Positions 19,359 through 29,311 of a stretch of DNA of 40,255 nucleotides are shown here, one piece after another. The translations under genes and the position numbers were made by a program. The DNA is from Marivita hallyeonensis. GTDB taxonomy: Bacteria; Pseudomonadota; Alphaproteobacteria; Rhodobacterales; Rhodobacteraceae. How positions within the stretch are numbered: position 1 is the first letter of the stretch; each line of letters opens with the position of its first letter. A model generated the notes under the pieces. The model did not search any database. It was given only the letters and a program-made list of their open reading frames with translations, and was not told the origin of the DNA. The stretch spans positions 1-40,255 of the forward strand of contig NZ_FQXC01000012.1 of assembly GCF_900129875.1 (NCBI RefSeq), read 5' to 3'.

Positions 19359-19918
19359 GTCTTACTCCACTCAAACGGGCTGTCGATATCCGCCAAGGCA
19401 GGCGCGTCTGCATCCTTCTCCGACAGGATCGGGTCCCCTGTCAGACCCCAGTCAATCCCGACGCTGTCCCAGCGCACGGCCCCTTCGGCCTCGGGCGCAT
19501 AGTAGCCGGTGCATTTGTAGACAATCTCGGTGTCAGGCGCCCGCGTCACAAACCCATGGGCAAACCCCTCCGGCACCCAAAGCTGCCGCCCGTTCTCGGC
19601 CGTCAGGTCAACGCCCACCCAGGACCCATAGGTCGGAGACCCGCGCCTTATGTCGACCGCCACATCCCAGAGCGCCCCGCGCCCGCAGCGCACCAGCTTG
19701 CCCTGCCCCTTGGGCGGGGCCTGGTAGTGCAGCCCGCGAATGGTGCCGACCTCGGCCGAGAGCGAATGGTTGTCCTGCACGAACTCCGGCATGATCCCCG
19801 CCACCTCGCGCAGGCGGGCCTTGTTCCAGGTCTCGGCAAAAAAACCCCGGTCATCCCCGAACCGCCGGGGCGTCAGGATCAAAAGCCCCTCGAGGGCGGT
19901 TTTCTCGACCGTCAACAT
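19355..19918 (-). CDS. rmlC: RmlC: dTDP-4-dehydrorhamnose 3,5-epimerase
   Basis: 187-residue cupin epimerase. The active-site region [19 protein letters not shown] carries His64 and Lys74; [12 protein letters not shown] and [12 protein letters not shown] are family marks, and [11 protein letters not shown] closes the fold. The start codon at 19918 shares its A with the repA stop (TGATG), so repA and rmlC are likely translationally coupled and carried on one mRNA. The rml operon therefore has no obvious promoter of its own before rmlC. Confidence 0.96.
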
Positions 19919-20916
19919 CAGCCGTCCTTCTGCGTCTTCACCCAGGCAAGGAACGCGGCATCGGGGTTTTTCAACCGCACCCGCCCCGTGTCATCCCACC
20001 ATGTCAGCCAGCGCGCCTGCAACCCGTAGACATCTGCCCCCGGCTTCAGCGCTTTCGCCATCTCCAGCGTGTCCTCCGATAAAATCGGGGCCTCAATCGG
20101 GCGCGGTTTGGTCCGCCGCGTGACAACAAGCACATCACCCTCGCGTTCGCTCAGGGAATAGTCCGGCAAATGGTCCGTCGCGATCATCTTGCGCACCGCC
20201 GCCCGGAACACCCGTACCGGCGCGGCAGAGCCCGCCTTGAGATGCAGCACCGGGATCGAGATCGCCCATTCCGCCTGCCGCCCGCAATGCTTGCGCGCCA
20301 ATTCGTAGACCCGCCGCTCCAGCGGTTTCCTGAGCCGGAAGTAATCCCGGCTTAGCGTCAGCACCGAGCGCGCGCAGACCGCGCGGTAGAGCCAGTCCGA
20401 GAGCGTCACCGTCACGCTGATCATCCGCCCGCCTTTCGACCGGCGCAGGATCTCCCAGCTCTCGATCAACCCGAAGCCCCGCGTCGCCTCGACCCCTCCG
20501 GTCTCCAGGTTCGTGGTGATCCGCGTCCCCGCCAGCCGCTCGAACCCCTCACGCAGACGGGCATAGCTGTCGCCCCCGGTATCCCGGTTCGTCGCCACCA
20601 GAAGATCATGCGCCTTGAGCGTCAGGGTCCGGCTCACGGCCCGACCCGCGTTCATCGCCGCCACCAGCTGGCTGATGCAATAGATCAGGATATCCTTGTC
20701 ATGGATCGTCGCCCGCCCCTTCACCGACGGCGTGACCTGCACCTCCACCCCGTTATGGGCGTAGCTCAGCACCCGGGTGTCGGGCCGCGTCGACAGCGAA
20801 AAGATCGGATGCTCCATGCTGGCCAGATCATCCTTGGGCGAGACCCCGAAGAGGTCACACACGAAGAAATCGCCCGTCGGGTGCCGGTCGGGCAAAAGCC
20901 CCTCTGTCCCTGCCAT
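19918..20916 (-). CDS. repA: RepA-type plasmid replication initiator
   Basis: 332-residue protein of the replication initiator protein A family used by roseobacter RepA-type replicons. Characteristic stretches are FSLSTRPDTRVLSYAHNG, DKDILIYCISQLVAAMNAG, LKAHDLLVATNRDTGGDSY, LREGFERLAGTRITTNLETGG and LRKPLERRVYELARKHCG, a winged-helix initiator core. It would bind the iterons at 21044-21109, about 130 bases upstream of its start, and open the origin. parA and parB are divergent on the other side of the origin. Fusion of the replication gene to the rhamnose operon by a one-base overlap is notable. The subgroup (RepA-I in the biofilm plasmids) is inferred from the rml context. Confidence 0.9.
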   Translation of the reverse strand: MAGTEGLLPDRHPTGDFFVCDLFGVSPKDDLASMEHPIFSLSTRPDTRVLSYAHNGVEVQVTPSVKGRATIHDKDILIYCISQLVAAMNAGRAVSRTLTLKAHDLLVATNRDTGGDSYARLREGFERLAGTRITTNLETGGVEATRGFGLIESWEILRRSKGGRMISVTVTLSDWLYRAVCARSVLTLSRDYFRLRKPLERRVYELARKHCGRQAEWAISIPVLHLKAGSAAPVRVFRAAVRKMIATDHLPDYSLSEREGDVLVVTRRTKPRPIEAPILSEDTLEMAKALKPGADVYGLQARWLTWWDDTGRVRLKNPDAAFLAWVKTQKDG

Positions 20917-21371: not shown

Positions 21372-22760
21372 ATGACACCGGATCAGGCCCTTCCTCCGTA
21401 TTTTAACATCCATCCCGACGACGCGTTAGGCGCTTTGGGCGCCCCCACCACCACACAGGATTTCGCCCGCATCGCCAAGGCCTGCGAAGCCGGGCGTCAG
21501 GATCTCGCCAGCCGTGGCCTGGAAGACAACGGCCAGCGCACCCTGCGCCTTTTCTCCACCTGGGAAATCACCCGCTACCTGATCCCCGTCGCCACCGGCC
21601 ATTTCCGCCGCGTGCTCAAACAGAACCCCGACCTGCCGCAAGGCCGCAGCGAAACCTCCGGAGGCGCCAAGTGGTTCACTTTTGACGAGGTGCTGCGCCT
21701 GCGCGCCCATTTCGCCGCCGAAGGATCGAAGACCAAGGAATACCTCCCCTACCGCCCCGCCGGTCAGCCCGCCAAACTGGTGGCGGTTGCGAACTTCAAA
21801 GGTGGCGTCGGCAAGACCTCGACCGCCGCGCATCTCGCCATGTCCGCCGCCCTCGACGGCTACAAGGTGCTGGTGATCGACCTGGATTCCCAGGGCTCCA
21901 TGAGCTCGATCTTCGGCGGCAAGGTCCAGGACGAATGGCAAACCGTCTTCCCGCTGCTCGCCCGCCACTACGCGCGCCACCTGCAGGGGGACAACCAGCG
22001 CCGCCTCGATCGGGGCGAGGCCCCCACCCCGCTCGACGACACTCTGTCGGATGCGCTCAAGACCGACGCGCACAGCCTCATCCAGAAAACCCACTGGCCC
22101 AATATCGATCTCATCGGCGCGCAGCTGAACCTCTACTGGGCCGAGTTCCAGATCCCCGTCTGGCGCATGGCCGCGCGGGGCTGGAAGCTCTGGGATGCGC
22201 TCACAGACAGCCTCGATCAGGACGGCATCCTCGATCAGTACGACGTGGTCTTTCTCGACACCCCCCCGGCGCTTGGCTATCTCACCATCAACGGGCTTGC
22301 GGCCGCCGATATCCTGCTGGTCCCCTTGGGCGCCTCCTTCCTCGAATTCGACTCGACGGGCCGCTTCTTCGACATGCTGCATTCCACCTTCGGCTCCATC
22401 GAAGAGGCGGAAAACATGGCCGCCCGCGCGCTTGGCCGCGAAGGTCTGTCCTTCCAATGGGACGCGGTGCGTGCGGTGGTCACCCGGTTCGACCCCAGCC
22501 AGCAGGCCGAACTTGCGGCTCTGATGCAGGCCTATCTCGGCCCCACGCTCTCGCCCCACCGGCAGGGCTTCACCGCGTTGATCGGTCAGGCCGGCGAACA
22601 GGTGCAGGGCATCTACGAGGCCGATTACCGCGATTTCAACCGCGAGACCTATGTGCGCGGCCGCGAAACCTTCGATGCCACCTACGCCGCCTTCAAACAG
22701 CTGCTCATCGGCAGCTGGCACCGCGACGTGCAGGCCACCAATGCCCATGCCGCGGAGTGA
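21372..22760 (+). CDS. parA: ParA partition ATPase
   Basis: 462-residue ParA, large form with an N-terminal extension of about 135 residues that includes a likely helix-turn-helix (TWEITRYLIPVATGHFRRVL). The deviant Walker A is AVANFKGGVGKTSTAAHLAM, followed by KVLVIDLDSQGSMSS. Walker B-like VVFLDTPPALGYLTINGL follows near residue 290. It moves plasmid copies apart with ParB bound at centromere sites. The ATG at 21372 is preferred to the in-frame GTG at 21345; neither has a strong ribosome-binding site. It is transcribed away from repA across the origin. A 143-base gap with a hairpin separates it from parB. Confidence 0.92.
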   Translation: MTPDQALPPYFNIHPDDALGALGAPTTTQDFARIAKACEAGRQDLASRGLEDNGQRTLRLFSTWEITRYLIPVATGHFRRVLKQNPDLPQGRSETSGGAKWFTFDEVLRLRAHFAAEGSKTKEYLPYRPAGQPAKLVAVANFKGGVGKTSTAAHLAMSAALDGYKVLVIDLDSQGSMSSIFGGKVQDEWQTVFPLLARHYARHLQGDNQRRLDRGEAPTPLDDTLSDALKTDAHSLIQKTHWPNIDLIGAQLNLYWAEFQIPVWRMAARGWKLWDALTDSLDQDGILDQYDVVFLDTPPALGYLTINGLAAADILLVPLGASFLEFDSTGRFFDMLHSTFGSIEEAENMAARALGREGLSFQWDAVRAVVTRFDPSQQAELAALMQAYLGPTLSPHRQGFTALIGQAGEQVQGIYEADYRDFNRETYVRGRETFDATYAAFKQLLIGSWHRDVQATNAHAAE

Positions 22761-22814
22761 GCCCATGTTCGCAGCGAAACGCCCCTGCTTCATCTTGCCC
22801 GTAAACTCCGGGGT

Positions 22815-22831
22815 TTGGGGCAGCGCCCCAA
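22815..22831. repeat. Hairpin between parA and parB
   Basis: TTGGGGC-AGC-GCCCCAA is a perfect 7-bp stem with a 3-base loop, 55 bases after the parA stop. Such GC hairpins recur in Rhodobacterales intergenic regions. It may reduce read-through into parB or be a repeat remnant. Nothing else was recognised in the 143-base gap apart from the parB ribosome-binding site. Confidence 0.4.
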
Positions 22832-22903
22832 TCCACCGCGCGCCACATGCACCGAACCTTTACCAAACGCGCAAAGCCTCCCACCCGGAAAAAGGAGGTC
22901 GCC

Positions 22904-23929
22904 ATGGCCAAGCGTAAACGCCTGACACCCGCCAACCCGGCCTATCTCGACACGCCCGCGCCCGAGACGAAGTCGATGTTCCAGACCCCCCGCGCCGCGC
23001 CCATCGCCGATGTGGCGCGCGACGCCTCCAGCACCGCGGCGCTGAACGAGATGGCCGACACGCTGGCCCGCGCCCGCGAGGATGGCCGCATGGTGGTGGA
23101 GCTGCCGCTCGACCAGATCGACATGGACCATCTCGTGCGCGACCGTCTCGTCGTGGAAGAGGCCGAGATGCGCACGCTCAAGACGTCGCTCAGGTCGCGC
23201 GGCCAGCAGACCCCGATCGAGGTCGTGGCGCTTGGGGGGGACCGCTATGGCCTGATCTCGGGCTGGCGGCGCTGTCATGCGCTGGCGCAGATCGCCGAGG
23301 AAGACCGTGATGACGCACCCACCGTGCTCGCGCTTCTGCGCAAGCCGGAAGAGGCCGCCGAGGCCTATCTCGCCATGGTCGAGGAAAACGAGATCCGCGT
23401 CGATCTCAGCTATTTCGAACGCGCCCGCATCGTGGCGAAGGCGGTCGAAGAGGGTGTTTTCGCAATGGAGCGCACCGCGCTGCAGGATCTCTTCCGCTCG
23501 GCGTCGCGCGCCAAACGGTCGAAGATCGGCAGCTTTCTTCCGGTCGTGCGCGCGCTCGACGGGCATCTGCGCTTCCCGCATGTGCTGAGCGAACGGCTGG
23601 GGCTGAGCCTGGCGCAGGCGCTGAACGACGATCCGGAGTTTGCCCAAAGCCTGCACGCCGCGCTGGCGCAGGCCGATGCCGACAGCGCAGAGGCCGAGAC
23701 CGCGGTGCTGACCAAGGCGCTGGCCCGTCAGGATCAGTCTCTAAAAGGCACATCAGAGACGAAATCAAAGGCATCCGGACCCGCGTTTCGCGACGAAACC
23801 ATCGGCGCGTTCACCTTGCGCCGTCACGCGGATGGCACCCTGTCGATCCTCGGAGCTTCCTGGCCCAAACGCATGGAATCGGACCTCAAGATGCTGCTCA
23901 AGGCCGCATCGGATCGTGTCGAAAAATAG
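22904..23929 (+). CDS. parB: ParB partition protein
   Basis: 341-residue centromere-binding protein. The ParB/Srx domain runs from about residue 65 (VELPLDQIDMDHLVRD, RGQQTPIEVVALGGDRYGLI, SGWRRCHAL, a variant of the GERRxRA box) through VEENEIRVDLSYFERARIV. The central helix-turn-helix follows (ALQDLFRSASRAKRSKI), and the C-terminal 50 residues (GAFTLRRHADGTLSILGA) form the dimer domain. AAGGAGG eight bases upstream fixes the ATG at 22904 and rules out the longer frame to 22847. The stop codon touches a compound palindrome (23929-23982) that is a candidate binding site. A degenerate version of the same palindrome lies inside the gene at 23785-23799. Confidence 0.92.
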   Translation: MAKRKRLTPANPAYLDTPAPETKSMFQTPRAAPIADVARDASSTAALNEMADTLARAREDGRMVVELPLDQIDMDHLVRDRLVVEEAEMRTLKTSLRSRGQQTPIEVVALGGDRYGLISGWRRCHALAQIAEEDRDDAPTVLALLRKPEEAAEAYLAMVEENEIRVDLSYFERARIVAKAVEEGVFAMERTALQDLFRSASRAKRSKIGSFLPVVRALDGHLRFPHVLSERLGLSLAQALNDDPEFAQSLHAALAQADADSAEAETAVLTKALARQDQSLKGTSETKSKASGPAFRDETIGAFTLRRHADGTLSILGASWPKRMESDLKMLLKAASDRVEK

Positions 23930-23982
23930 GTCCGCTTCGGCCCTAATGTTTCGCGCGCGAAACAATGGGTCCGGTCCGGACC
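23929..23982. promoter_or_regulatory. Three-palindrome element at the parB end, candidate parS
   Basis: A perfect 18-bp palindrome TGTTTCGCGCGCGAAACA (23947-23964) is flanked, three bases away on each side, by GGTCCGCTTCGGCCC (23929-23943) and GGTCCGGTCCGGACC (23968-23982), both palindromic around a 3-base or 1-base centre. The middle element resembles chromosomal parS (TGTTTCACGTGAAACA). A second copy with identical spacing is at 26473-26526 in reverse orientation. ParB binding is inferred; the outer palindromes could also act as terminator hairpins for parB. Confidence 0.6.
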
Positions 23983-24049
23983 TAATTCGGGGGCCCGGAG
24001 GCGTTGTCGCCTCCGCGGGTTTCCGTCCACGGAAACCACTCTCCCCCGG

Positions 24050-24066
24050 TTAAGCCCGCGTTAACC
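24050..24066 (+). promoter_or_regulatory. CtrA-like box upstream of the GT2+GT4 gene
   Basis: TTAAGCCCGCGTTAACC is a perfect TTAA-N7-TTAACC match. It points toward the glycosyltransferase gene and ends 52 bases before its start, a spacing suited to activation at the promoter. A further TTAA follows six bases later. Confidence 0.5.
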
Positions 24067-24118
24067 GTCTTTAAGCCATCCTTTCCGCCGTTCTGACGTC
24101 CGGAAAAGGGGTGTGCCC

Positions 24119-26452
24119 ATGTTCCTTCGCCTGCGGCCCCTCTATCGCCGCTATGTCCTGCACCATTTGCGGGTGCCCTTGGGCGCGGTCCGCTTTGTCG
24201 GCCATCCCGAGATGACGCTCTGGCTGCGGCAGGGGCGGGTCTGTATCGATGCGGGCGATGTGGTGCTCGAACACGGTGGCGCGCGGTCGGAAACCGGGTC
24301 CCTGCCCTTTGCGCCCGGGGCCGAGACGCGCGTTTCGCTGCGAAAACAACCGCTCGAGGCCGAGATCCTGCCCGCCCTGCCCCTGCCCCGCCTGATCCGG
24401 GCGCATGCCGCGCTCTGGCCCCGGCTGTGCCTGCGCGCGCTGAAGGTGCTGCCGCTTTTGCCACGGTCCCGCGATCCGCATATCCGCGCCCGGGCGGTGC
24501 GGCGGCTGGGCCTTGCCTCCGATCCGCCTGCCCCACCCCTGCACCTGCCGCCGGAGCGGGCGTCGCTCCGGTCGCTGGCCACGCCCATCGCCCTGATCCT
24601 GCCGGTGCACAATGCGACCCATCACGTCACCCGCTGTCTTGCCCGGATCGATCGTACGACCGATCTGCTCTGGCAGCTTGTGATCGTCGAGGACGGCTCT
24701 ACCGATCCCAGCCTGCGCCCGATGCTGGAGCGCTGGGTCGCCGCGCGGCAGAGTGCGACGCTGATCCGCCATGACCGCCCGAAAGGCTTCGCCGGATCGG
24801 TCAACGCCGCGCTCGATCAGCTTGGCGGGTTCGATGGGCCGGTGGTGCTCCTCAACTCCGATATCACGCTGCCAGACGGCTGGGCCTCGCGCCTTGTCGC
24901 GCCGATTCTGGCCGACGGGCTGGTGGCCAGCGTCACACCGCTCTCCAACGAGGGCGAACTGATGTCGGTGCCGCATATGAGCACCGGTGTTGCGCTGCGA
25001 AACGGGGAGGTCGACGCGGTGGATGCGGCGCTGGCCCCTTACGCGCGGCACAGCTGCCTGCCCGCCCTGCCCACCGGCACCGGCTTCTGCATGGCGCTGT
25101 CTCCGCATTGGCTGGCCGAGGTGCCGCGCTTCGACGAAAGCTTCGGGCGCGGCTACGGCGAAGAGGTGGACTGGTGCCAGCGCACCCGCGCCTTGGGCGG
25201 TCAACATGTGTGCCAGACCGGGCTGTTCGTCGGCCATGTCGGCGCCGCGAGTTTCGGCCGCCGCGCGCGTCAGGACCTGCGGGTCCGTGCGGGCCGCATC
25301 CTGTCGCAGCGCTGGCCGAGATTCGACACTGATGTGGCCCAAACCCTGTCCTGTGACCCGCTGGCCGGTGACCGTCTGCGCGCCGGACTGATCTGGGCCA
25401 AGATCCGGTGCAAGGGTGCGCTCCTGCCCGTCTACCTCGCCCACAGCCTTGGCGGCGGGACGGAGCGCTGGCTGGCGCAGCGGCTGGCGTCGCATGACCT
25501 GGCCGTGGTGCTGCGGGTCGGCGGCCCGCTGCGCTGGCAGCTTGAACTGCACAGCCCTGCCGGGGTGACACGGGGCGCGACTGACCGGTTCGCCGATATC
25601 CTGCAGCTGATCCGTCTGGGTGGTCCGCGGGATGTCGCGTATGTCTGCGGGGTCGGTGATCCGGCGCCCGAAGGGTTGCCGTTCCGTCTGCTTGATCTGT
25701 GCGCCGGAGGGCAGGGGCTCGAGATCCTGTTCCACGATTACTTCCCCGTGAATCGCGATTACACGTTTCGCAGCGAAGCGGAGGCGGACTGGCAGGCGCT
25801 CTGGCGTCCGGCGCTCGACCGGGCGGAGCATCTGACGGTGTTCTCCGAGGCGTCGCGCCATATCGTGGCCGCGTGTCATCCCGACCTTGCCCACAAGATC
25901 CGCCTGCGCCCGCACGGGCCGCTTGGTCCGGTGCCGCCGCTGACCCCGGCCCCGGCGGGACGTCCGGTGATCGGTGTGCCGGGCAATCTCAACGCGCAGA
26001 AGGGTGCGCAGGTGGTGACCGATCTGGCGCGGGTCTTTGCCCGCACCGGGGAGGCGCGGATTGTCGTGCTGGGAGAGGTGGCGCCCGATTGCGCCTTGCC
26101 CCGTTCGGTGACGGTGCTGGGTGGCTACCGGCTCGATGACCTGCCGCATCTGGTGGCGCGGCACGGGATCGGTGGCTGGCTGATCCCGTCGCTCTGGCCC
26201 GAGACCTTTTCCTATGTCACGCAGGAATCGCTGGCGACCGGGTTGCCCTGTCTCGGCTTCGATCTGGGCGGGCAGGGCGACGCGCTGCGGGCGGCGGAGA
26301 ACGGGCAGGTCGTTGCGCTGCGAAAAGATGGCAGTGCCGATCTCGACCGGCTTCTGGCGGCGCTGCGCGGATTGCCGGATTGGCCGGCGATACGGGAAGA
26401 TACAGGCTCTGTTTCGCCGCGACCCCTGTTCTGGAGGCGGGCGGGCGCGTGA
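24119..26452 (+). CDS. Two-module glycosyltransferase (GT2 + GT4-like)
   Basis: 777-residue protein. After about 150 residues with no recognised domain comes a GT2 module (about 155-390): IALILPVHNATHHVTRCL, LVIVEDGSTDPSLRPML, GFAGSVNAALDQ, LLNSDITLPDGW (the DxD-type metal site) and FGRGYGEEVDWCQR. The second half is GT4-like: VIGVPGNLNAQKGAQVV near 615 and PSLWPETFSYVTQESLATG near 690, the donor-binding end. It could add two sugars in turn, as in capsule polymerases. The ATG at 24119 is preferred over a GTG six bases earlier because of spacing to AAAAGGGG. The gene is bracketed by the two inverted parS-like elements. Sugar specificity unknown. Confidence 0.8.
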   Translation: MFLRLRPLYRRYVLHHLRVPLGAVRFVGHPEMTLWLRQGRVCIDAGDVVLEHGGARSETGSLPFAPGAETRVSLRKQPLEAEILPALPLPRLIRAHAALWPRLCLRALKVLPLLPRSRDPHIRARAVRRLGLASDPPAPPLHLPPERASLRSLATPIALILPVHNATHHVTRCLARIDRTTDLLWQLVIVEDGSTDPSLRPMLERWVAARQSATLIRHDRPKGFAGSVNAALDQLGGFDGPVVLLNSDITLPDGWASRLVAPILADGLVASVTPLSNEGELMSVPHMSTGVALRNGEVDAVDAALAPYARHSCLPALPTGTGFCMALSPHWLAEVPRFDESFGRGYGEEVDWCQRTRALGGQHVCQTGLFVGHVGAASFGRRARQDLRVRAGRILSQRWPRFDTDVAQTLSCDPLAGDRLRAGLIWAKIRCKGALLPVYLAHSLGGGTERWLAQRLASHDLAVVLRVGGPLRWQLELHSPAGVTRGATDRFADILQLIRLGGPRDVAYVCGVGDPAPEGLPFRLLDLCAGGQGLEILFHDYFPVNRDYTFRSEAEADWQALWRPALDRAEHLTVFSEASRHIVAACHPDLAHKIRLRPHGPLGPVPPLTPAPAGRPVIGVPGNLNAQKGAQVVTDLARVFARTGEARIVVLGEVAPDCALPRSVTVLGGYRLDDLPHLVARHGIGGWLIPSLWPETFSYVTQESLATGLPCLGFDLGGQGDALRAAENGQVVALRKDGSADLDRLLAALRGLPDWPAIREDTGSVSPRPLFWRRAGA

Positions 26453-26472
26453 CGGTTCGGGGGACCAAATTA

Positions 26473-26526
26473 GGTCCGGATCGGTCCTATTGTTTCGCAC
26501 GCGAAACATTGGGTCCGTTTCGGACC
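26473..26526. promoter_or_regulatory. Second three-palindrome element, inverted copy
   Basis: The central TGTTTCGCACGCGAAACA (26491-26508) is flanked three bases away by GGTCCGGATCGGTCC (26473-26487) and GGTCCGTTTCGGACC (26512-26526). Read on the other strand, the whole 54-base block matches the copy at 23929-23982 in order and spacing. It lies between the convergent ends of the glycosyltransferase (26452) and the ABC permease (26542). Candidate ParB site, possibly combined with a bidirectional terminator. Confidence 0.6.
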
Positions 26527-26541
26527 TATTTCTCGGGCGGG

Positions 26542-27345
26542 TCACAGATCGCTCAGAATGTCCCTGTGCCAACGCAGGAGCCCGATCCCCGCCAGCAGCG
26601 CCGCACCCAGCCCCAGCGCCAGAACGTAAGGCACGCTCACGTAACCGGCGTCATAGCCCGGATACAGCCCGCGCCGCACGAGGCCGACGATGTGGATCAG
26701 CGGGTTCCACCCCAACAGATCCCGCCAGGGCAGGGGGACGGCCTCGAACACGAAGAACACGCCCGAGATCAGGAACATCGGGCGCATGGCGATGGCCCAG
26801 ATCCGCTGCCAGAGCGGCAGAAGGCCGATCAGAAGGCAGTTGAGCATCCCCGTCCCGAGGCTCAGCACCATGAGACACCCCGCGGCCTGCGCCAGCGTGG
26901 CGATATCCGGTGTCGCGCGTGTTTCGCTGAGAAACAGGATGCCGCCCAGAAGCAGTGCCGCGACGGCGATCTGCGTGCCCGCCGCCAAGAGGAACCGCGC
27001 CAAAATCGCGTCCATCACGCCAACGGCGGGGTAGGCGAACAAAGGTCGCGAGAAGGTCAGCGCCTGCGCCAGCTTGTTCGTGATATCGGAAAACGCGAGG
27101 AAGGGCAGAAGCCCGGTGGCGTAGAAGAGCGGGAAACTGGTGCCGAGCGACGGGGCCTGAAAGCCGATGGCAAAGATCGCCGACAAAAGCGCAATGCCGA
27201 ACAGCGGCTCTGCCACGGCCCAGAGATATCCCCCCGGGACCCGGCCATGGCTTGTCGCCATTTCGCGCAGCATCAACGCACACACCGCGCGCCACAGGGT
27301 GGGTCGCGCGGTGTGGCGGCTCAAGCGTGCGGGTGGGTCGGTCAT
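26542..27345 (-). CDS. Polysaccharide export ABC permease (KpsM-like)
   Basis: 267-residue inner-membrane protein of the ABC-2 family. Six hydrophobic segments are evident: YLWAVAEPLFGIALLSAIFAIG, FPLFYATGLLPFLAF, FLLAAGTQIAVAALLLGGIL, AAGCLMVLSLGTGMLNCLLIG, AMRPMFLISGVFFVFEAV and VLALGLGAALLAGIGLLRW. REMATSHGRVPGGYLWAVAEP near the N-terminus is the coupling helix typical of KpsM/RkpT/CtrC exporters. It would form the channel with the KpsT-like ATPase at 28607. It is transcribed opposite to the KpsE and KpsT genes with only 47 bases between starts, an unusual split. Confidence 0.85.
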   Translation of the reverse strand: MTDPPARLSRHTARPTLWRAVCALMLREMATSHGRVPGGYLWAVAEPLFGIALLSAIFAIGFQAPSLGTSFPLFYATGLLPFLAFSDITNKLAQALTFSRPLFAYPAVGVMDAILARFLLAAGTQIAVAALLLGGILFLSETRATPDIATLAQAAGCLMVLSLGTGMLNCLLIGLLPLWQRIWAIAMRPMFLISGVFFVFEAVPLPWRDLLGWNPLIHIVGLVRRGLYPGYDAGYVSVPYVLALGLGAALLAGIGLLRWHRDILSDL

Positions 27346-27392
27346 GGGAGTGTCCGATCAAGGGAAACACGCTATGCGGGAAAATCTACTTA

Positions 27393-28610
27393 ATGACTCT
27401 CGTAAAATCAATCCCATCTGACCCGACCGCCCCGTTCCACGGCACGTCTGACCCGGTCCTGCCGGTCACCCGCCTGCCCGCGCCATCCGCCCGCTGGCGC
27501 ATGCGTCACGTGGCGTTGCTGCTCTCGGGTCTTGTCTGCGTGCTGCTGCCCGTGCTTCTGAGCGCCTGGTATCTCTGGGCCCGCGCGGCGGACCAGTACG
27601 CGTCGGAAGCGGGCTTTGCCGTGCGCCGCGAAGAGACCGGCGCGGCGGTGGAGATGCTGGGCGGTCTGGCGGGCCTGTCGGGGGCCAGTTCGCGCGACAC
27701 CGATATCCTGTACGAGTATCTCGGCTCGCGCCGGCTGGTGGCGGAACTGGAGGCCGGTCTTGGCCTGTCGGCGCTTTGGTCGATACCGGGCACAAAGGCG
27801 TTTCGTGGCGAAACAGACCCTGTTTTTGCCTTCGATGCCGACGGATCTCTGGAGGCGTTGCATGCCTATTGGCCGCGCCGGGTGCAGGTGTCCTATGACA
27901 GTCTTGCCGGGTTGATCGAGCTGCGCGTGACCGCCTTTGCGCCGGACGACGCGCAGCGGATCGCGGACGGGATCGTCGCGCGGGCCACCGCGCTCATCAA
28001 CGAGATGAGCGATGTGGCGCAGGCCGATGCGGTGCGCGATGCGGCGGCGGAGCTTGAGGCGGCGGAGACCCGGCTGCGCCTCGCGCGGGCCGAGGTGACG
28101 CTGTTCCGCAACCGCCATCAGCTGGTCGATCCGGCGATGGACCTGCAGGCGCAGGCGGGGCTTCTGGGCACGTTGCAGGCGCAACTGGCCGAGGCGCTGA
28201 TTGCGCTTGATCTGTTGCGCGAGGCGACCCGCGCCGATGACCCGCGGCTGGAACAGGGCGCGCGCCGGGTGGCGGTGATCGAGGCGCGGATCGCGGCGGA
28301 ACGGGCCAAGCTGGGGCTGGAAGGGGACGGCGCGGCCTTTGCCGATGTGGTGGGCGCCTACGAGGCGCTGGTGGCCGATCGCGATTTCGCCGAACGCGCC
28401 TATGCGGCGGCGCGCGGGGCCTATGATCTGGCCCAGGCCGAAGCGCGGCGGCAGAGCCGTTACCTTGCCGCATGGCAGGCGCCCACCCTGCCCGAGACGG
28501 CGGAATACCCGCAGCGCGCGCGCCTGTTGGCACTGGTGGCAGGGTTCGCAGCGCTGCTTTGGGCGCTGGCGGCGCTGTCGGTCTACGCGGCGCTGGACCG
28601 GCGCGGATGA
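27393..28610 (+). CDS. Capsule export inner-membrane protein (KpsE-like)
   Basis: 405-residue polysaccharide co-polymerase-like protein spanning the periplasm. A transmembrane segment near the N-terminus (HVALLLSGLVCVLLPVLLSA, about residues 37-56) and one at the C-terminus (LLALVAGFAALLWALAALSV) bracket a periplasmic domain. That domain includes YASEAGFAVRREE, a KpsE/RkpR mark, and long coiled-coil helices (AELEAAETRLRLARAEVTLF and on). It would join the ABC exporter to an outer-membrane channel. It overlaps the kpsT-like gene by four bases. A shorter start at 27499 is possible. A degenerate copy of the parS-like palindrome lies inside at 27800-27814. Confidence 0.82.
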   Translation: MTLVKSIPSDPTAPFHGTSDPVLPVTRLPAPSARWRMRHVALLLSGLVCVLLPVLLSAWYLWARAADQYASEAGFAVRREETGAAVEMLGGLAGLSGASSRDTDILYEYLGSRRLVAELEAGLGLSALWSIPGTKAFRGETDPVFAFDADGSLEALHAYWPRRVQVSYDSLAGLIELRVTAFAPDDAQRIADGIVARATALINEMSDVAQADAVRDAAAELEAAETRLRLARAEVTLFRNRHQLVDPAMDLQAQAGLLGTLQAQLAEALIALDLLREATRADDPRLEQGARRVAVIEARIAAERAKLGLEGDGAAFADVVGAYEALVADRDFAERAYAAARGAYDLAQAEARRQSRYLAAWQAPTLPETAEYPQRARLLALVAGFAALLWALAALSVYAALDRRG

Positions 28611-29311
28611 TCGTCTTGCAGGACGTCTGGAAACGCTTTCCCGGCGGGGCGCCGGTGGCGCAGGGTGTCTCGGCGGTGTTCCCAAGGGGGCGGGCCACCG
28701 CGCTTCTGGGGGCCAACGGGGCGGGCAAGTCGTCGCTTCTGGCGATGATCGCGGGCACGCTGCGCCCGGATGCGGGCCGGGTGGTGCGACAGGGCACGGT
28801 GTCCTGGCCCGTGGGGTTCGCGGGCGCGTTCCATCCCGATCTGACCGGCGCGCAGAACACGCGCTTCGTGGCGCGGGTCTATGGCGTGGACAGCGGCGCG
28901 CTTCTGTCCTTCGTGCGCGACGTGTCGGGGCTCGACCGGGCGATGGGTCAGCCGGTCCGGCGCTATTCCTCGGGCATGCGGGCGCGGCTGGGCTTTGCGC
29001 TGTCGATGGGCATTCCCTTCGACATGTATCTGGTGGACGAGGTCACGGCGGTGGGCGACGCCGCGTTTCGCCGCGAAACATCGGCGCTTCTGCGCGCGCG
29101 GCTGGGGCAGGCGGGCGCGGTGGTGGTGAGCCACGCGCCCGCACAGCTGCGCGAGATCTGTACGGCGGGGGCAGTGCTCCGGGAGGGACGGCTCGAGATG
29201 TTCGACGATCTCGACGTGGCGCTTGCGGTGTATCAGGCGGGTGTCAGCCCGGCATCTACCCCGCCAGCCACAGGGCGAGCCGGTCGCGGGGCCATTGGCG
29301 GTAGGCGCTGA
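28607..29311 (+). CDS. Polysaccharide export ABC ATPase (KpsT-like)
   Basis: 234-residue ATPase energising glycan export. Walker A GANGAGKSSLL (about residues 36-46), ABC signature YSSGMRARLGFALS, Walker B MYLVDEVTAVGD, and a switch histidine in VVVSHAPAQLRE are all present. The short size and GAFHPDLTGAQNTRFVAR, VYGV are typical of KpsT/Wzt-type exporters without a carbohydrate-binding tail. The start at 28607 is set by an ATGA overlap with the KpsE-like gene. Its last 56 bases overlap the end of the convergent GT2 gene, so the final residues (PPATGRAGRGAIGGRR) may be a recent extension. Confidence 0.9.
   Translation: MIVLQDVWKRFPGGAPVAQGVSAVFPRGRATALLGANGAGKSSLLAMIAGTLRPDAGRVVRQGTVSWPVGFAGAFHPDLTGAQNTRFVARVYGVDSGALLSFVRDVSGLDRAMGQPVRRYSSGMRARLGFALSMGIPFDMYLVDEVTAVGDAAFRRETSALLRARLGQAGAVVVSHAPAQLREICTAGAVLREGRLEMFDDLDVALAVYQAGVSPASTPPATGRAGRGAIGGRR

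Follow-up and report, generated by a model that had tools for sequence, protein, structure and literature searches.

We analysed a 40,255-bp stretch of DNA from Marivita hallyeonensis (hereafter the window), which makes up an entire contig (C17) of a draft genome (4.19 Mb, 20 contigs), and found that it carries two copies of a composite element, in which an 18-bp palindromic core stands between two palindromic arms; the first copy lies at the stop codon of the plasmid partition gene parB. This element is common to plasmid and chromosome and occurs chromosome-wide, an observation of which we are practically certain. The best explanation overall, which we consider fairly probable, is a plasmid centromere-like site (parS) embedded in the local copy of a chromosome-wide element that has a putative resident reader. 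Four observations computed directly underlie this reading: the association of ParB with the core, the chromosome-wide sites, their all-or-none conservation, and plasmid arms that match those of the host in three lineages.

A first-pass annotation of the sequence had described two 54-nt blocks of three palindromes with fixed spacing, one of them at the end of parB. Both blocks were confirmed, at 23929-23982 and 26473-26526, with every arm beginning 3 bases from its core, and block 1 overlaps the parB stop codon TAG (23927-23929). Copy 1 reads GGTCCGCTTCGGCCC-TAA-TGTTTCGCGCGCGAAACA-ATG-GGTCCGGTCCGGACC and copy 2 reads GGTCCGGATCGGTCC-TAT-TGTTTCGCACGCGAAACA-TTG-GGTCCGTTTCGGACC. The blocks had been called inverted copies, a description that did not hold: compared by eye, they agree at 46/54 bases in direct and 45/54 in inverted orientation, and because the whole block is near-palindromic, its orientation carries no meaning. 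The parts of the two composites are as follows.

23927..23984, unstranded, composite copy 1, an 18-bp core between two A arms, at the parB stop
23929..23943, unstranded, copy 1 left arm, type A (GGTCC-N5-GGACC), one base changed
23947..23964, unstranded, copy 1 core TGTTTCGCGCGCGAAACA, which the plasmid ParB clade is predicted to use as parS
23968..23982, unstranded, copy 1 right arm, type A, perfect
26471..26528, unstranded, composite copy 2, between the convergent glycosyltransferase and ABC permease genes
26473..26487, unstranded, copy 2 left arm, type A, one base changed
26491..26508, unstranded, copy 2 core TGTTTCGCACGCGAAACA
26512..26526, unstranded, copy 2 right arm, type A, perfect

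With up to three mismatches allowed, the core TGTTTCGC-N2-GCGAAACA matched the window twice, both times exactly, against 0.19 matches expected, and two core matches were seen in 2 of 100 shuffled windows. The extended arm TAGGTCCG-N3-CGGACCTA, also at up to three mismatches, occurred four times against 0.12 expected (0/100 shuffles). The count of the short arm GGTCCG-N3-CGGACC alone is not above chance, since its 10 matches at up to two mismatches compare with 6.28 expected and 14 of 100 shuffles reached 10.

This plasmid family very probably uses the core as its parS. We selected loci for similarity of their ParB and included up to 1.5 kb of flanking sequence, and the 28 whose ParB scored at least 170 bits against the window ParB were taken as clade loci; six of these are from Marivita and are close relatives. 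The 62 control loci include loci of chromosomal ParB and of RepB; a ParB match of any kind is present in 31 of the 62, some hold no ParB and a few repeat one place (e.g. L033, L303). The palindrome GTTTCGC-N2-GCGAAAC was present in the fetched stretch of 26/28 clade loci versus 1/62 controls (Fisher, 3e-19), and the full core TGTTTCGC-RY-GCGAAACA in 23/28 versus 0/62. The 19 clade loci that came from a search for relatives, chosen independently of cores, were positive in 18 cases, and the nine from genomes selected for having cores in eight; four loci fetched through the core itself (L182, L185, L196, L214) were excluded, and with them the count becomes 30/32. As for the two misses, L258 has a core about 1.5 kb past parB, beyond the fetched stretch, and L014 has two copies with one mismatch. 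The examination of related replicons near parB that the first-pass annotation had proposed thus recovered the core in nearly all clade loci.

Two properties expected of a plasmid parS were found, namely a palindrome kept beside related parB genes and a site that varies with the ParB. Two ParBs at 49% and 44% identity (L267, L261) are accompanied by variants with the outer base changed on both sides, AGTTTCGC and GGTTTCGC, and four ParBs at 37-39% identity (L025, L026, L268, L269) by sites with a one-base spacer (at most one mismatch). Three ParBs at 39-40% identity (L024, L270, L275) had no one-spacer sites, no exact site was found with ParBs below about 130 bits, and most of the more distant ParBs lacked the core. 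In G031, likely Rubricella aquisinus, parB has five cores at its 3' end, spread over some 500 bp (L204 2502-3002); one of them may overlap the gene end, and the ParB match contains one in-frame TGA, a stop because of which this locus (L013) was left out of the ParB alignment. In another genome, G017, both cores are on the parB contig and are armless, so that ParB alone suffices to explain them there. Beside the parB of Tritonibacter horizontis (L347 2634-2692), a small array is formed by two cores, 41 bp from each other, and GGTCAG-type arms in alternation. The association of ParB with the core was computed, and binding of the core by ParB is predicted from it. The first-pass annotation had proposed composite ParB sites: the proposal is supported for the core, which marks clade loci and shifts in type as ParB diverges, and falls short for the composite, which exceeds a plasmid parS.

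Throughout the host genome we counted 17 cores, distributed as five on C9, two on C10, three on C11, three on C13, two on the window, one on C18 and one on C19; C9, C10, C11 and C13 measure 0.68-1.1 Mb and C19 85 kb, and 14 of the 17 cores are off the two RepA plasmids (C17 and C18). The same genome has six perfect GGTCCG-N3-CGGACC arms, every one adjoining a core. All 17 Marivita genomes contain 9-17 cores. A close ParB was present in six of them, and the 11 without it keep 9-14 perfect cores; the latter are drafts, two of them 87% complete, in which a plasmid may occasionally have been missed. Together the 17 genomes hold 206 perfect cores and 222 matches at up to two mismatches. The 16 near-misses compare with 14 for a reversed-pattern control, which indicates that there are essentially no decaying copies of the core. 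In the wider family, sampled with one genome per genus, 56 of 248 genomes had at least one core. At least 80 named-genome matches were listed; among those listed, the titles that name a genus are by our reading mostly of Rhodobacteraceae, a few name other groups, perhaps owing to mis-binned contigs, and in several no family is given. The 123 loci fetched from this broader set, eight of them viral_contigs records, hold 145 sites, of which 35 are within 3 kb of a clade parB, five near repA and two near parA, leaving 103 near none of these genes. According to the first-pass annotation, finding the block scattered over chromosomes far from any parB would refute the reading as ParB sites. Such scattering is what we found; it does not overturn the parS role, and the chromosomal copies show that a plasmid parS alone does not account for the composite.

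The arms were sorted into type A (GGNCC-N5-GGNCC, at most four mismatches in 12 fixed positions) and type B (GGTCA-N7-TGACC, at most five). Among the 154 arms of 77 Marivita sites, fetched out of the 206, there were 109 of type A, 33 of type B and 12 others, and every one of the 77 sites had at least one type A arm at the fixed spacing (32 with two A arms, 33 with A and B, 12 with A and another). The GG and CC bases of type A arms have a conservation of 94-99%, against 55% and 83% for the T and A that would pair in a stem, so that many arms break that stem pair. The GGTCC/GGTCA arms are lineage-specific. By eye, B-type arms were seen at sites of several other roseobacters, and in G051, likely D. 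shibae, the arms are quite different, yet conserved among the 12 copies fetched of 14 on the chromosome. In a comparison of four lineages, in which G148 was represented by 6 loci and contigs were taken as chromosomal, plasmid sites fitted the arm profile of their own host best in Marivita (12/12), G051 (1/1) and G148 (2/2). The plasmid sites of G279, whose ParB is 76% identical to that of the window, carry Marivita-type arms. Plasmid sites are armless in hosts lacking the chromosomal network, such as G017, so that ParB itself appears to need no arms.

The second RepA-type plasmid of the host, C18 (42,460 bp), has one core beside repA with one A arm (L124 15475-15492). No match to the window ParB or ParA was found in the 40.0 of 42.5 kb of C18 that were searched, and the genome-wide ParB search likewise gave none; a small ATPase encoded on C18 is, as we take it by eye, ParF-like. 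That a core with a host arm occurs here without a ParB of the window type suggests a host system, in addition to the plasmids' own ParB, for which they carry the element.

Gene calls were made with our own simple codon-usage caller. None of 102 sites in 15 genomes falls inside a gene call; by their neighbours, 42 lie between convergent, 47 between codirectional and 11 between divergent genes, with two undecided, although some divergent gene pairs may be miscalled. The core centre is no more than 60 bp past a stop codon at 64 of the 102 sites. In the broader and more distant set, with the identical caller, 17/145 sites lie within gene calls. The sites also have stable places within the genus: in a comparison of six Marivita genomes, one of them represented by a single site, 14 of the 17 sites of the host genome have flanking genes in common with sites in other species, that is, 12 of the 14 off-plasmid sites and both window sites. 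The end of holC, for example, bears a site in five Marivita species. Searched for as an altered core, the element was absent from the orthologous holC place in other genera, the locus being present in 29 of 30 genomes; 27 of these 29 loci come from genomes chosen for having no exact core, and for these 27 the result rules out an altered palindrome at that place only. On three chromosomes of other genera, 34 sites were compatible with a uniform distribution (Kolmogorov-Smirnov, p 0.90), the origin being taken as the parS cluster. Among Leisingera/Phaeobacter-type genomes, seven loci (L315, L316, L325, L339, L350, L362, L425) share one common place, between genes that by eye are betB-like and nicotinate phosphoribosyltransferase-like.

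On contig C10 of the host genome (G000), the sites at 227738 and 267310 (L048/L049, L436-L438) lie in 416-bp direct repeats that are 97% identical, each consisting of the end of an ntrX-like gene and the composite element, and flanking a 39.6-kb region that by eye is rich in transporter and metabolic genes. We considered the element as an integration site; no integrase was noticed in the gene calls of this 39.6-kb island, and with the direct repeats this is read as homologous recombination.

Around the window composites, a second palindrome with a one-base spacer, GTTTCGC-N-GCGAAAC (N1), forms an array of 10 sites at 22766-29079 at up to two mismatches, against 0.23 expected; at up to one mismatch the pattern has 11 places genome-wide, 7 of them in the window. 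Neither this array nor the spread of the composite through the rest of the genome had been noted in the first-pass annotation. The array overlaps parB, the glycosyltransferase gene and ABC transporter genes. When the window was compared with six plasmid loci of relatives (G279 and five of Marivita), codons over N1 sites were identical in 203/223 same-residue comparisons versus 5074/8364 in the rest of the five genes concerned (Fisher, nominally 6e-24, with related sequences treated as independent), and this codon-level identity indicates that N1 sites are conserved at the DNA level inside genes. We read them as additional predicted ParB sites with a one-base spacer.

22766..22780, unstranded, N1 site with 2 mismatches, near the parA stop
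23785..23799, unstranded, N1 site GTTTCGCGACGAAAC, inside parB
24332..24346, unstranded, N1 site GTTTCGCTGCGAAAA
24989..25003, unstranded, N1 site GTTGCGCTGCGAAAC
25765..25779, unstranded, N1 site GTTTCGCAGCGAAGC
26312..26326, unstranded, N1 site with 2 mismatches
26411..26425, unstranded, N1 site with 2 mismatches
26921..26935, unstranded, N1 site GTTTCGCTGAGAAAC
27800..27814, unstranded, N1 site GTTTCGTGGCGAAAC
29065..29079, unstranded, N1 site GTTTCGCCGCGAAAC, perfect

The only perfect one-spacer sites of the genome outside the window are a pair 7.5 kb apart on C13 (685338 and 692850; L055), which flank the chromosomal core at 687224.

The replicon that carries these sites is of the RepA type, and a ParA ATPase gene adjoins a gene of the ParB/RepB family, as in plasmid ParABS systems. 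Its principal genes are listed below.

19918..20916, minus strand, repA, replication initiator, matching PF10134 at E 2e-97
21372..22760, plus strand, parA, RepA/SopA-like partition ATPase
22847..23929, plus strand, parB, ParB/RepB/Noc-like protein, for which our gene caller favours the start at 22904
24119..26452, plus strand, two-domain glycosyltransferase (PF00535, PF00534) between both composites, with N1 sites in its coding sequence

The AlphaFold model of the window ParB (mean predicted local distance difference test score, pLDDT, 78.9) was matched by Foldseek to Noc (E 9e-8), ParB and KorB (8qa9), with low whole-chain TM-scores of 0.2-0.3. Beside repA, the segment 16429-19918 holds what we take by eye to be rmlA, rmlD, rmlB and rmlC, and resembles a dTDP-rhamnose operon; a similar arrangement is known from published biofilm plasmids of roseobacters.

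In the reading that we favour, the 18-bp core would serve as the centromere-like site of the adjacent ParB, and the arm-core-arm block would be the plasmid's copy of an element found at about ten intergenic chromosomal places in the host genus. To segregate the plasmid, ParB and ParA would use the cores and also the N1 array that extends across the genes nearby. Core and arms would also be bound by a putative resident DNA-binding factor, present as well in species without the plasmid, which would mark the chromosome and the plasmids alike. Something resident probably holds the chromosomal sites constant, and that a resident reader other than ParB exists seems likely to us. The presence of one and the same core beside parB and, unchanged, on chromosomes suggests a DNA-marking system common to plasmid and chromosome. 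The plasmid might gain from joint handling with the chromosome through tethering or shared placement, a role in tethering or co-handling that we put forward only tentatively.

Several results weigh against this reading. The plasmid sites of G205 carry chromosomal arms in none of two cases, and in several genera, G017 being one, the plasmid site is present but a chromosomal network is not. The end of holC has no site in G131 and G294, two genomes of other network-bearing genera, which shows that places differ between genera. Neither an origin nor a terminus bias was found, so that a macrodomain role is not indicated, and a matS-like class of terminus or origin macrodomain sites was accordingly set aside. 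The window ParB matches the RepB family TIGR03454 at E 1e-18, under the curated cut-off, and is likewise under that of TIGR00180; a Pfam search at E 0.001 gave no match to it. The profile of the ParB clade found nothing in five plasmid-free Marivita genomes, and TIGR00180 found only the chromosomal ParB and two weak partial matches in one of the plasmid-free genomes, G016. A ParB paralogue as chromosomal reader was therefore rejected on the clade profile in the five genomes and on TIGR00180 in G016. Among the 25 gene families most shared as neighbours across genera, no DNA-binding candidate was noticed.

The block could instead be a plasmid parS only, with the chromosomal copies bound by the plasmid ParB, as hitch-hiking tethers or as decoys that titrate the ParB of incoming plasmids, and no resident reader at all. 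We regard this as unlikely. The core is identical on plasmid and chromosome, and outside Marivita the ParB profile found a clade ParB in 8/9 genera with at least four cores versus 1/9 without cores (the exception, G107, has a variant site), although the cores of the former genera are unsorted and in some of them part or all may be plasmid sites. In Marivita, however, 11/17 genomes lack a close ParB and their cores are perfect, with no decay above background; G294, with 5 cores, is a case outside that genus also without a close ParB. Mean core numbers after subtraction of known plasmid copies are 11.0 with and 11.5 without the plasmid (a hand count without a statistical test), and plasmid sites have no arms in network-free hosts such as G017, so that the arms are dispensable for ParB. 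If the sites were instead bidirectional transcription terminators that share a sequence, their places just past stop codons (64/102 within 60 bp) and often between convergent genes (42/102) would be expected, a perfect arm can fold into a 6-bp hairpin with a 3-nt loop, and the minus strand of 23968-23982 fits the terminator pattern. Yet a terminator scan of 22700-27500 gave 4 hits versus 3.0 expected, one of the four being an arm, so that a class of intrinsic terminators with a GC stem and T tract above chance was not found; in the sites listed the core never varies and keeps an R-Y centre, a constraint not needed for a hairpin loop; the T/A pair of the arm stem, kept at 55%/83%, is often broken; and no Rfam family matches the window. 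Termination is thus very unlikely as the common function, and the suggestion of the first-pass annotation that parS is fused with terminator hairpins is not borne out by the chance-level scan and the broken stem pair.

We also hold it highly improbable that the element is a mobile or duplicating repeat of the repetitive extragenic palindrome/bacterial interspersed mosaic element (REP/BIME) or miniature inverted-repeat transposable element (MITE) kind that spread in the ancestor of the genus. Such an origin would suit the dispersed, intergenic, palindromic copies, the lineage-specific arms common to the copies within a genome, the differing places between genera and the 18/77 sites that supply the TAG stop of a neighbouring gene; against it stand the low copy number (9-17), the flanking genes common across species, the lack of decaying copies above background, and gene calls around the sites of the host genome in which, as far as they were read, no transposase was noticed. 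Strict orthology within the genus speaks against recent movement, and with 14/17 sites sharing flanks at 9-17 copies, the variation in copy number and position among close relatives that marks REP/BIME or MITE repeats was not seen. To the last alternative, operators of an ordinary resident transcription factor regulon, we give only the slightest chance: strict palindromes flanked, at a distance of some two helical turns, by half-sites do resemble cooperative dimer binding, but only 11/102 sites lie between divergent genes and the flanking genes have, by reading of their translations, unrelated housekeeping functions (presumably priA, holC, lpd, rlmE and ftsK/lolA).

Compared with known systems, the core has the outer hexamers TGTTTC and GAAACA in common with the parS of chromosomal ParABS (TGTTTCACGTGAAACA), from which it differs in its length of 18 bp, in a G for an A, in two extra central bases and in being dispersed where chromosomal parS is clustered at the origin. 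The genome has three perfect copies of TGTTTCACGTGAAACA at C13:485829-488022, near the chromosomal parB; with its other sequence and dispersal, and the true parS elsewhere, the core is not a chromosomal parS of the Spo0J type. KorB of RK2, which is also a global repressor, binds operators of the form TTTAGC-S-GCTAAA; this odd-spaced layout resembles the N1 sites (TTTCGC-N-GCGAAA), which spread over several kb, and the ParB model matches KorB 8qa9, whereas the main core has a two-base spacer. Noc, SlmA and matS sites are some tens of strict palindromes dispersed on the chromosome. Dispersed strict palindromes are thus a common feature, and Noc is a relative of ParB; in contrast to those systems, the search of G016 yielded no Noc-like paralogue, and the sites here favour neither origin nor terminus, are intergenic and have arms. 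For a nucleoid occlusion network, no ParB/Noc-like reader candidate was found; SlmA-like readers were not searched.

Roseobacter RepA-I replicons combine a PF10134 RepA with parAB as the window does. The same site stands beside parB on a 152,970-bp contig of the likely D. shibae, and a 153-kb D. shibae chromid is called RepA-I in the part of the literature available to us (PMC9426580). RepABC palindromes are described, in the sections consulted of two papers, as cis anchors diagnostic of compatibility groups in Rhodobacterales (PMC9426580, PMC3910702). The plasmid ParB scores with RepB of that system (TIGR03454), below the cut-off, while the RepABC-11 palindrome TTTACCG/CGGTAAA, as given in an excerpt of PMC3910702, differs in sequence and the replicon here is of the RepA type. 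ZapT of Caulobacter was considered as an analogue and does not match: its ten sites are, according to the accessible portion of PMC7188993, ter-biased, mostly in open reading frames and without a consensus motif. The accessible sections of PMC3910702, PMC4511512 and PMC9426580 give no parS for RepA-type plasmids; an exact-string search of the open-access literature returned no paper with the motif, and topic searches showed nothing on it among the titles and abstract beginnings listed.

Collectively, the core provides an easily recognised signature by which to identify the partition site in this RepA-type plasmid family, one not found in the searchable literature. Our broadest proposal, which we advance as a possibility and which would more readily fail than hold, is that roseobacter chromosomes have a genome-wide network of some ten identical sites resembling centromeres, in which an 18-bp palindrome is invariant and the arms are particular to the lineage, and which a resident protein of an undescribed kind would read. 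RepA plasmids may have adopted the core as parS together with the arms of the host, so that one common system would mark plasmid and chromosome and the plasmid would be tethered to the chromosome or handled along with it. In species with and without the plasmid, what is a plasmid centromere sequence is also an all-or-none conserved mark at shared places on the chromosome, and it lends itself to testing how plasmids and chromosomes are coupled. Many replicons may coexist in a roseobacter, and the finding bears on how low-copy plasmids fit into such multi-replicon cells.

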